DNA of 64,000 bases from an uncultured Balneola sp. (GTDB taxonomy: Bacteria; Bacteroidota; Rhodothermia; Balneolales; Balneolaceae). A program made the translations under genes and the position numbers. Below, in pieces: positions 14,418 through 36,178 of this stretch. The DNA lies in contig CAJXQC010000001.1 of the NCBI GenBank assembly GCA_913058495.1, positions 124,779 through 188,778 on the forward strand, read 5' to 3'. Below the pieces are notes generated by a model that saw nothing but the letters and a program-made list of their open reading frames with translations, did not search any database and was not told the DNA's origin. Position 1 is the first letter of the stretch; each line of letters begins with the position of its first letter.

Positions 14418-14717
14418 ATGCCTTACGAAATATTAGTAGGATTGAATGTAACTGATGATGAACTATATCAGAAGTACAGGGATGAAATGACGCCGATTCT
14501 AAAAGAATATGGAGGAGGCTTTAGATATGATTTCTTGATAGAAAAAGTATTAAAAACAGATTCTGAATCTAAAATAAACAGAGTTTTTGCTATTTATTTT
14601 GAGAGTGAAGAAGCAAAAAATGAATTTTTTCTGAACGATAAATACATTCAAATAAAGGAGAAATATTTTACGCCGTCAGTTTCAGGTACAACAACTATCG
14701 CCGGATATAACAGATAA
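14418..14717 (+). CDS. DUF1330-like small cytoplasmic protein
   Basis: 99 residues with a ferredoxin-like alpha/beta pattern: the opening Y-E-I-L-V-G-L-N-V, D-x-x-x-Y-x-x-Y-R-D-E-M-T-P-I-L-K-E-Y-G-G-G-F, then F-A-I-Y-F-E-S-E-E-A-K-N-E-F and a C-terminal strand. This is the layout of DUF1330 dimeric alpha-beta-barrel proteins, whose function is not settled. It lies alone, 110 bases from the divergent DoxX gene, and its end is 22 bases before the first REP doublet. Confidence 0.65.
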   Translation: MPYEILVGLNVTDDELYQKYRDEMTPILKEYGGGFRYDFLIEKVLKTDSESKINRVFAIYFESEEAKNEFFLNDKYIQIKEKYFTPSVSGTTTIAGYNR

Positions 14718-14739
14718 GATCAAACCTTCATTTTAACTT

Positions 14740-14835
14740 AGTATTCCATCTGACGGATTGCTCGTCTGATGGAATACTGAGCTATCTAGTTAACCAGATT
14801 TTCGGTCAGACAGTTAATCTGTCAGACCGAAAATC
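14740..14835. repeat. REP doublet copy 1
   Basis: Hairpin A has arms AGTATTCCATCtGACG (14740-14755) and CGTCtGATGGAATACT (14763-14778) with one central mismatch. Hairpin B has arms GATTTTCGGTCAGACAG (14797-14813) and CTGTCAGACCGAAAATC (14819-14835), again with a single central mismatch and a 5-base loop. The conserved mismatch in the stem is typical of REP sequences recognised by RAYT transposases. Confidence 0.85.
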
Positions 14836-14858
14836 GGCAGGAAAATGTTTAGAGGGGA

Positions 14859-15383
14859 TTATAACCAAGCCAAGTAAACAATCAGTTTTTGATCTATAAG
14901 TTTTACTTTGATTCTACTTATTTCTTCTCCTTCGTAGTAAATGAAACTATTATCCTCTGCAATTTTTACTATTTCCATGGTTTCGTTATCAAATATTTCT
15001 GTATAGCTCTGGGTTGGCTTTTCTTTGTCAAACAATAAAGTTTTGAGAATAGGAAATGAATAATAGTAATCATCCAGAAACTCAGTTTTGGAATAGATAG
15101 ATACAATCGAATCAGAAGGAAAGCTTAAATAATCTAAGTGCCAGTTTGCGTGATCGACAGTAACCATCTCTCTTTTCCAAGTGAAGTTTTTATAATTATC
15201 ATGGGTGATTTGAATATTTTTTTTGTTATCGATAGGATGAAACGCATACAGAAGATCTTCCGGTAAGTTTGTTTCATGTTCAAAATAACTATCCCAAAAG
15301 AACTCGCAGTAATAGAGATAAGTGGGTGTGCTTATTGCAAAAACCAGGATAGAAATGGCAAGGGTTTCTGTGAACTTTCTCAT
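14859..15383 (-). CDS. Unknown membrane-anchored or exported protein, bracketed by REP doublets
   Basis: Not recognised. The start at ATG 15383 gives M-R-K-F-T-E-T-L followed by one hydrophobic segment (about residues 6-24), then a 150-residue soluble domain rich in Tyr, Asp and Lys with strand-like periodicity, presumably outside the cytoplasm. The frame is open to an earlier ATG at 15428, but that codon lies inside a REP hairpin, so it is less likely. It sits exactly between REP doublets 1 and 2, in the same direction as the transposase. It could be cargo of the element or a resident gene with repeats inserted at both sides. Confidence 0.6.
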   Translation of the reverse strand: MRKFTETLAISILVFAISTPTYLYYCEFFWDSYFEHETNLPEDLLYAFHPIDNKKNIQITHDNYKNFTWKREMVTVDHANWHLDYLSFPSDSIVSIYSKTEFLDDYYYSFPILKTLLFDKEKPTQSYTEIFDNETMEIVKIAEDNSFIYYEGEEISRIKVKLIDQKLIVYLAWL

Positions 15384-15424
15384 CTCTAACAATATTAAAG
15401 AATAGGAATAATTCAAAGTTATAG

Positions 15425-15518
15425 CCATTCCATCTGACGGATTCCCCGTCTGATGGAATACTGAGTTAGCGAATCAAGCTAGTTTTTTCGGTCAGACAGG
15501 TAATCTGTCAGACCGAAA
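15425..15518. repeat. REP doublet copy 2 (overlaps the RAYT 3' end)
   Basis: Hairpin A has arms 15427-15440 and 15446-15459 (ATTCCATCTGACGG and its partner). Hairpin B has arms TTTCGGTCAGACAG (15486-15499) and CTGTCAGACCGAAA (15505-15518). The minus-strand stop codon of the transposase (15479-15481) lies in the linker, so hairpin B is translated as the last 13 or so codons of the transposase. Confidence 0.88.
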
Positions 15519-16120
15519 TCAACATTAGCTAAAAATTCATCAGGAATTGTCTGCTTAGAAAAGGCTCTAAACTTTTTATTATCAATAGGAAGTTTAAATA
15601 AATCTCTGGCTAATTCCTGATTACAAAGTTTTCCATTTCGAAACCCGGCATAATCCTGATACGAAGAAAACTCCCATTCTTCTAGTTCGGTCACCAGTTT
15701 AGCTCTAATAGGATTTTGATGAATGTACAAGAAACAATTGATTCCATAGCTGTTATGATTTTTGAATTCTTTAAATAGCGATTTAGCTTTAGCTCTGGCT
15801 CGGAATAAAGAACCGGAGCGATTTAATTTCTTGTTAATCGCTTGAGTATAAGAGCTTTGAAGAATCCCAATACTCCTGTTCAAGGAGCCCACATTATTTG
15901 TTGCCTTAAGTTTTTCAGAAGATTGATAATCAGGTTTTACTTGAAATAAATAATGATAATGATTCGGCATTAAACACCACGCCAAAATGTTAATGTATGG
16001 AACGAGGTGTTTTTCAACTTTCTTTAAGAAATACAGATAATTTTCTCGTTCAAAGAAAAGTAGTTCTCTGTTATTGCCTTGATTATAAAGGTGGTATACA
16101 TGTTCTGGGATAAATTGCAT
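15479..16120 (-). CDS. REP-associated tyrosine transposase (RAYT, Y1/IS200-like)
   Basis: A single-strand HUH nuclease that nicks REP hairpins. The HUH motif is N-H-Y-H-Y-L (H54, H56), preceded by W-C-L-M-P as in other RAYTs. The likely catalytic Tyr is Y91 in S-S-Y-T-Q-A-I-N, followed by G-S-L-F-R-A-R-A-K-A-K-S. The later H-Q-N-P-I-R-A-K-L-V and W-E-F-S-S-Y-Q-D-Y-A-G are standard family signatures. The length of 213 residues is normal and no frameshift is seen, so it may be active. The last residues (G-L-T-D-Y-L-S-D-R-K-N) are encoded by the REP hairpin at its 3' end. Matching REP doublets flank it on both sides. Confidence 0.92.
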   Translation of the reverse strand: MQFIPEHVYHLYNQGNNRELLFFERENYLYFLKKVEKHLVPYINILAWCLMPNHYHYLFQVKPDYQSSEKLKATNNVGSLNRSIGILQSSYTQAINKKLNRSGSLFRARAKAKSLFKEFKNHNSYGINCFLYIHQNPIRAKLVTELEEWEFSSYQDYAGFRNGKLCNQELARDLFKLPIDNKKFRAFSKQTIPDEFLANVDFGLTDYLSDRKN

Positions 16121-16171
16121 CTGTCATTATAATAAAAATGGGATTTAAACTATAAACATATACCGTATTAC

Positions 16172-16198
16172 GGTCAGACGGACTTAAGCTGTGAGACC
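16172..16198. repeat. Decayed single REP hairpin
   Basis: GGTCAGAC (16172-16179) faces GTGAGACC (16191-16198) with several substitutions. It matches hairpin B of the REP doublets. It lies just upstream of the RAYT gene start and beside intact doublet 3, and looks like an older copy. Confidence 0.5.
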
Positions 16199-16207
16199 AC
16201 CAAACTT

Positions 16208-16300
16208 CCATTTCATCTGACGGATTCCCCGTCTGATGGAATATTGAGTTAGCGAATCAAGCTAGTTCTTTCGGTCAGGCAGGAAATCTGTCAGACCGAA
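16208..16300. repeat. REP doublet copy 3
   Basis: Hairpin A has arms 16211-16223 and 16229-16241 (CATCTGACGG core). Hairpin B has arms TTCGGTCAGGCAG (16270-16282) and CTGTCAGACCGAA (16288-16300), here with two stem mismatches. The linker is identical to copy 2 over about 22 bases. It lies 2 bases after the end of the TRIC gene (minus strand). Confidence 0.85.
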
Positions 16301-16302
16301 TC

Positions 16303-16908
16303 TCAAACCTTCATCTTTGGCAACGAAAGGTCGAGCTTAATGGCAGCAACGCGTATTCCGATAACTACCCCGGTAGTAATGACATAGTTCAAATTGGTTG
16401 CTATATCAAAATAGATGCCGAGATAGAAAACCAAAGCTCCCATCAAGCAAGCAGTGGCATAGATCTCTTTTCTAAAAATAAGCGGAACTTCTCTGCATAG
16501 AATATCCCGGATAATCCCACCAACCACTGCGGAGGTCATTCCCATGATTCCTGCCATAAACGGATTTAATCCGAAAGCCAAAGCCTTTTCCATTCCACTG
16601 ATCGTAAACAACGCTATCCCAATGGTATCAAATAAAAAGAGCGGTTTATTGATATCATCCAATCTGTTTCTGATCAGATAAGTAAATGGAATTGCAGACA
16701 AGATCACAATGGGATAAGTCATATCGCCGATCCAGGTTATGGACTCGCTTCCAATCAGAATATCACGAACGGTTCCGCCACCAATAGCCGTCGCAAAACC
16801 GATCACAGCCGCTCCGAAAATATCGAGATCTTTCTTAGCCGCCATCCTGATGCCACTTATAGCAAATACAAAAGTCCCGATAAGATCAAGGATGGAGATG
16901 ATGGTCAT
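16303..16908 (-). CDS. TRIC-family (UPF0126) cation channel-like membrane protein
   Basis: 201 residues with about seven membrane segments arranged as two repeats of the same three-helix unit. G-F-A-T-A-I-G-G-G-T-V-R-D-I-L-I in repeat 1 corresponds to G-M-T-S-A-V-V-G-G-I-I-R-D-I-L in repeat 2, the glycine-rich kinked-helix motif of prokaryotic TRIC channels (YadS/YicG group). Bacterial TRIC proteins form trimers permeable to K+ or Na+, but their physiology is uncertain. Its stop codon abuts REP doublet 3. No operon partner is clear; Mrp lies 102 bases upstream on the same strand. Confidence 0.88.
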   Translation of the reverse strand: MTIISILDLIGTFVFAISGIRMAAKKDLDIFGAAVIGFATAIGGGTVRDILIGSESITWIGDMTYPIVILSAIPFTYLIRNRLDDINKPLFLFDTIGIALFTISGMEKALAFGLNPFMAGIMGMTSAVVGGIIRDILCREVPLIFRKEIYATACLMGALVFYLGIYFDIATNLNYVITTGVVIGIRVAAIKLDLSLPKMKV

Positions 16909-35430: not shown

Positions 35431-35458
35431 GGTCAGACGGACTAAACCCGTCTGATGG
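35431..35458. repeat. Single REP hairpin of the RAYT-linked family
   Basis: TCAGACGG (35433-35440) pairs perfectly with CCGTCTGA (35448-35455). The context GGTCAGACGG...CCCGTCTGATGG joins the left half of REP hairpin B with the right half of hairpin A found at 14.7-16.3 kb. It lies 19 kb from the RAYT gene, so the family is dispersed. Confidence 0.65.
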
Positions 35459-35495
35459 GTTTTTAAGGCTAGTCTGTATTGATTGAGATTCACCT

Positions 35496-36150: not shown

Positions 36151-36178
36151 GTCAGACGGGCTACAGCGGTCAGGTCTT
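36151..36178. repeat. Decayed single REP hairpin
   Basis: GTCAGACGGGCTACAGCGG then TCAGGTC resembles the REP hairpin B (GGTCAGAC ... GTCAGACC) with substitutions. It lies between the MgtC gene and the end of the MscS gene. Confidence 0.4.

Follow-up and report, generated by a model that had tools for sequence, protein, structure and literature searches.

An orphan gene in a second REPIN-bounded interval of a Balneola RAYT block

The stretch of DNA analyzed here (the window; 64,000 nt from an uncultured Balneola sp., a marine bacterium) contains a gene for a REP-associated tyrosine transposase (RAYT) that shares a block of double-hairpin repeats with a second, orphan gene. RAYTs are generally seen as domesticated enzymes that stand alone and are not known to move, and it is still debated what makes hosts retain them. 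The block raises the question of whether the second gene is cargo, as a previous sequence-only reading had proposed, and of how it came to lie between the repeats.

That reading described three direct copies of a two-hairpin REP element delimiting both genes, and this anatomy is confirmed: three direct doublets of ca. 93 nt (starting at about 14735, 15427, and 16210) enclose an orphan-gene bay and a RAYT bay (Table 1), and the patterns of both hairpins match the window at these three places only, with zero matches in shuffled sequences. The copies lie at 14741-14833, 15425-15517, and 16208-16300; copy 1 is 60 % identical to copy 2 without gaps and 85 % with gaps, and copies 2 and 3 are 95 % identical. 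In each doublet, the core of hairpin A is CCATCTGACGG-loop-CCGTCTGATGG and hairpin B is CGGTCAGACAG-loop-CTGTCAGACCG. The reverse complement of hairpin B matches hairpin A, including an internal stem mismatch (T.T in A and A.A in B, strand as read); hairpin B is therefore an inverted hairpin A, and each doublet, with two REPs in inverted orientation and a short spacer between them, constitutes one REPIN, a pair of inverted REPs that spreads as a doublet (PMC3116915). Among ten REPIN copies from four genomes, 90.6 % of the cells pair and two-sided changes occur at three stem pairs, particularly in REPIN1 of genome G003, with a covariation that in this sample exceeds that of shuffles weakly. The outer edges of the block are abutted by a near-perfect 15-nt direct repeat. 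The earlier reading had missed both this repeat and the inverted relation of the two hairpins.

Table 1. Coordinates in the window of the features of the block and its neighbors
Feature	Position	Strand	Remarks
DUF1330-family gene, left neighbor, outside block	14418..14717	+	99 aa; Pfam PF07045; conserved in G001, G003, G006, G007
Outer direct repeat, left copy TCAAACCTTCATTTT	14720..14734	.	15 nt; relatives have up to 17 nt; single at G001 empty site
REPIN1	14737..14835	+	Hairpin A 14737-14781 (extended stem); hairpin B (inverted REP) 14797-14835
Orphan passenger gene	14859..15383	-	ORF, 174 aa; N-terminal membrane anchor or signal
REPIN2	15427..15518	+	Hairpin A 15427-15459; hairpin B 15486-15518
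RAYT (REP-associated tyrosine transposase)	15479..16120	-	213 aa; HUH motif NHYH; catalytic Tyr in SSYTQ; YIHQNP
Decayed single REP	16172..16198	.	Pairs better in G006/G007
REPIN3	16210..16301	+	Hairpin A 16210-16242; hairpin B 16269-16301
Outer direct repeat, right copy	16303..16317	.	Doubles as 3′ end of glycine-transporter gene
Glycine-transporter (UPF0126-type) gene, right neighbor, outside block	16303..16908	-	201 aa; Pfam PF03458; adjoins G001 empty site too

A search for further doublets found three full REPINs in the whole 3.4-Mb host genome, all inside the block, and ca. ten single hairpins elsewhere, so that the amplified, genome-dispersed population expected of REPINs was not seen. 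The single or decayed REPs reported at 16172, 35431, and 36151 are present, and an MgtC-like gene is bracketed by two of them (35431-35459 and 36151-36178). In genome G005 (locus L091), the corresponding MgtC-like gene is adjoined by a gene distantly similar to a lipoprotein-like ORF of G003, described below. Additionally, an intergenic region of G000 (contig C37, 1-2900; L060) is dense in unrelated repeat families (GGGCGTTCACGCCC, GGGCTTCAGCCC, and others) and contains four single REPs around a tRNA-Phe-like gene; as a candidate passenger array this cluster was rejected, because it is a mixed region with other repeat families.

The RAYT scored 23.9 bits against the Pfam model Y1_Tnp, narrowly above the cut-off of 23, and thus has a recognizable Y1 domain; against the NCBIfam model REP_Tyr_transpos, an equivalog that may not cover subclass 2.6, it scored 48.2 bits (E 1e-12), below the curated cut-off of 80. 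Motifs NHYH and SSYTQ are conserved across an alignment of 18 homologs and, as expected for this class, the gene is flanked by REP hairpins, further copies of which are found at other places in the genome. The RAYT stop codon lies inside hairpin B of REPIN2 (15479-15518), from which the last codons of the gene are read. Subclass HuH 2.6, or RAYT group 5, is recognized by the signatures NH[LIV]H and YIH[QN]NP, by atypical hairpins without GTAG, and by its occurrence in Bacteroidetes (PMC6006769). The block RAYT contains YIHQNP, its HUH motif is NHYH, no GTAG foot was seen in its hairpins, and its host belongs to the Balneolaceae, relatives of Bacteroidetes; placed by its signatures, it may fit this subclass.

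The orphan gene could also start at an upstream ATG inside REPIN2 (15428), for a product of 189 aa. Its protein has a hydrophobic N-terminus and is probably membrane-anchored; it had no family match in Pfam, NCBIfam, PHROGs, or PADLOC, and none in phages or plasmids, and its structure was modeled with a pLDDT of 38. A dN/dS of about 0.29 and a codon-position pattern typical of a selected protein indicate an accessory protein under purifying selection. Homologs occur only in G006 and G007, two other Balneola species, at the same locus, making three genomes with the host; matches in the protein search were from Balneola sp. EhC07 and one Balneola MAG. Genome-wide searches of five other Balneola genomes (G001 to G005) and of 51 further relatives did not find the gene.

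Both G006 and G007 carry the same block in the same place. A clean empty site, of the kind that the earlier reading had suggested looking for in a close relative, is present in G001, where the DUF1330 and glycine-transporter genes are adjacent, with one copy of TCAAACCTTCATTTTAG; in the genomes that carry the block, this sequence stands on both sides of it as a direct repeat of 15-17 nt; in G001 the block may either never have inserted or have been deleted. In G003, the left repeat and REPIN1 are followed by an unrelated ORF for a lipoprotein-like product of 168 aa, which is encoded on the other strand, and then by the right repeat; a functional link of this ORF with the passenger was considered, but no similarity was found. 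No block was found at the 3′ flank of the transporter gene in more distant species. The phylogeny of these Balneola genomes is near-star, with recombination.

These comparisons bear on whether the repeats simply landed around a gene that was already there. For the block itself we reject insertion of REPINs around a resident gene, because the passenger is missing together with the block in G001 and is absent from the other Balneola genomes; the passenger is thus accessory, and it was found at this locus in no relative lacking REPs and RAYT. A broader version of this idea is that REPINs land in intergenic gaps near the RAYT, the passenger being an ordinary accessory gene, the differences among genomes ordinary indels or recombination, and the bays meaningless. 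In its favor, REPs are mostly intergenic and recombination mosaics occur throughout the flanks of the block; against it stands the joint absence of passenger and block in G001; we consider it rather unlikely, but as a null it remains substantial. The outer repeat, in turn, might have let the whole block enter or leave at once, independently of REPINs and RAYT, if illegitimate recombination or slippage took place where the glycine-transporter gene ends (3′). The repeat abuts both edges of the block, is single at the empty site, and has similar counterparts around the different content of G003, but such a process explains the outer edges only, and neither exchange at the level of bays nor the recurrence of this arrangement elsewhere, and we find it very improbable. 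The high similarity of copies 2 and 3 had been taken as a sign of recent movement; this was not confirmed, because both copies are 92-93 % alike in G006 and G007 as well, and their duplication therefore predates these species.

A second type of evidence comes from the comparison of G006 with G007. From about 14691 to 15519, spanning REPIN1, the passenger, and REPIN2, these genomes differ by 3 mismatches in 829 nt, whereas divergence on either side is 6-8 %; across the 20 kb that were compared, no other stretch of such near-identity approaches this length, the next one being of 362 nt. The tract represents a recent transfer of one bay between two species of Balneola. Its right edge coincides with the end of REPIN2, as might be expected from a clean transfer bounded by the action of the RAYT. 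However, this edge should not be over-read, because G007 has a cluster of its own changes just to the right of 15519, and its tightness may in part reflect a separate change in the RAYT of G007. On the left, G007 switches from G000-like to G006-like sequence between 14673 and 14699, 36-62 nt outside REPIN1, which weakens the case for a RAYT-bounded transfer and favors homologous recombination over cutting at REPIN1.

The left breakpoint is also relevant to active transposition of cargo, in which the RAYT would cut at REPINs, much as at the ends of IS200/IS605 elements, and move REPIN-gene-REPIN units in single-stranded form. The catalytic HUH and Tyr residues are kept in most homologs, the RAYT shows a dN/dS of 0.15-0.18, cargo varies among islands, and the shared orientation of the REPINs, on one strand, agrees with a strand-specific process on single-stranded DNA. 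Conversely, the exchange between G006 and G007 reaches beyond REPIN1, the passenger bay was never found away from the block locus, and in G006 the bay persists although the RAYT is frameshifted (L055, 2879-3388); in G007, the RAYT is C-terminally shortened. To our knowledge, an insertion of the IS200/IS605 type is not expected to leave an outer direct repeat of 15-17 nt. The literature reports no evidence of mobility of tnpA-REP genes (PMC8266576), and a REPIN-bounded unit at different sites, as in a composite transposon, was not seen for the passenger, which occupies one locus in three genomes. Cargo transposition driven by the RAYT is therefore a live rival, but an improbable one and weaker than recombination.

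In 92 genomes of the family, 23 RAYT loci of the subfamily of the block RAYT were listed. The statement that RAYTs normally sit alone between REPs held for many (e.g., L064, L065, L066, and L079) but not for all. The RAYT of G005 (L064, 1132-1502 and 2124-2829) is flanked by tandem arrays of REPIN units of ca. 150 nt, one array with two units and the opposite one with five. At a second Balneola locus, between gltS and a helicase gene (L066/L080/L126/L129), the order is REPIN-RAYT-REPIN-REPIN in G003 and REPIN-RAYT-REPIN in G007, with a lone REPIN in G006 and G001 and a remnant in G000; at this locus, it is the RAYT that was gained or lost as an interval. Other islands include an additional bay between REPINs, filled with different genes, and this part of the cargo proposal stands; that the RAYT moved the gene is less probable, the one datable exchange breaking on the left outside a REPIN. 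Thus, G084 and G093 contain REPIN-RAYT-REPIN-[DUF433/DUF5615]-REPIN, G101 has a ParE toxin and a small partner in a REPIN-bounded bay beside the RAYT, and a Gfo/Idh oxidoreductase bay adjoins the RAYT in G084 and G100. The DUF433/DUF5615 pair is regarded as toxin-antitoxin-like. Six of the seven full-length REPINs of G084 are inside the RAYT island, so that genome-wide abundance does not explain the bracketing there, and within each of ten islands the REPINs share one orientation, without exception among the 48 copies scored.

The order of the bays also varies. Read REPIN-forward, it is sigma(+), Gfo(-), RAYT(+), DUF433/DUF5615(-) in G084; sigma(+), RAYT(+), Gfo(-) in G100; and DUF433/DUF5615(-), RAYT(+) in G093. 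The RAYT and its neighboring bay are therefore swapped, with orientation kept, in two species comparisons (G084/G100 and G084/G093), as would follow from excision and reinsertion, or from recombination, of the segments that co-oriented repeats delimit; protein identity is 80-90 % in the first (RAYT and Gfo) and 65-83 % in the second. These permutations could include misjoins at repeats, since the contigs of G084, G100, G093, and G101 are short drafts, some of them ending inside REPINs. Moreover, the sigma genes beside the islands of G084 and G100 are only 60 % identical and other neighbors differ, so these loci may not be orthologous. The presence of DUF433/DUF5615 bays beside RAYTs at two different sites in genus g19 is suggestive only as a sign of a moved unit. 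Both this recurrence and the permuted order with conserved orientation argue against incidental bracketing, which is favored by the islands of G072, G075, and G093, where REPINs are scattered among ordinary-looking genes, such as those for an M28 peptidase and a SpoU methylase; many REPIN-flanked neighbors may likewise be native genes around which REPINs inserted, and this also counts against the explanation that we prefer.

The preferred explanation, to which we give about an even chance, is a REPtron, with a RAYT of the Bacteroidetes type (subclass 2.6 or group 5), in which the intervals between co-oriented REPINs become exchangeable, mainly by homologous recombination, with the RAYT supplying repeats and not transport of cargo. 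The anatomy, the empty site, the bay exchange, the recurrence in the family, and the shared orientation of REPINs were observed directly, whereas the recombination route and the activity of the RAYT are deduced. The RAYT would presumably make and place the REPINs, as deduced from the known family; the REPINs, together with their flanks, could then act as joints of homology and, because all REPINs of an island point the same way, the bays might be lost, traded between strains, or rearranged in sequence while keeping their orientation. The 174-aa gene would be an accessory passenger of one interval, brought in with the block. A bolder proposal, which we find quite unlikely, is that the RAYT islands of the Balneolaceae are gene-capture platforms, in which the RAYT would excise and reinsert REPIN-ended cassettes (toxin-antitoxin systems, orphan membrane proteins, and enzymes) on single strands, generating shuffled arrays unlike integrons in both enzyme and site. 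If clustered, co-oriented REPINs do bound genes that are lost, exchanged, or re-ordered, they would suggest a use as portable recombination joints for gene turnover, and possibly a simple means of exchanging genes; the idea can be tested in Balneola, where one site exists in full, partial, and empty form.

Several known systems resemble the block. In integron arrays, co-oriented recombination sites separate interchangeable genes beside one enzyme; the resemblance is one of behavior only, and no tyrosine integrase of the IntI type was seen among the ORFs near the block, nor was an attC-like site identified. Like IS200/IS605 elements, the block has a related Y1 HUH enzyme and hairpin ends but, unlike them, it shows no sign of presence at several sites and has flanking direct repeats. 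Its doublets are inverted REP pairs of about 93 nt overall, as in REPINs (PMC3116915), but the copies are very few, point in one direction, and lie almost exclusively in the RAYT island, the remainder in the genome being single hairpins. In the REPtron of Escherichia coli, a single tnpA-REP gene likewise has three REPINs (inverted REP pairs) around it, and no passenger bay appears in the portion of its description considered here (PMC6006769). The closest match is the REPtron of HuH 2.6 or group 5, with a Y1 HUH transposase, atypical hairpins without GTAG that have copies elsewhere, YIHQNP, and a single RAYT of its type (PMC6006769), from which the block differs by the extra gene in a second REPIN-bounded bay and by bays that vary between relatives. 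Passenger bays in REPtrons were not described in the literature searched, which was open-access only and is hence weak evidence of absence. The block is best read as a known kind of REPtron, in which what appears to be new is one or more passenger bays bounded by co-oriented REPINs.
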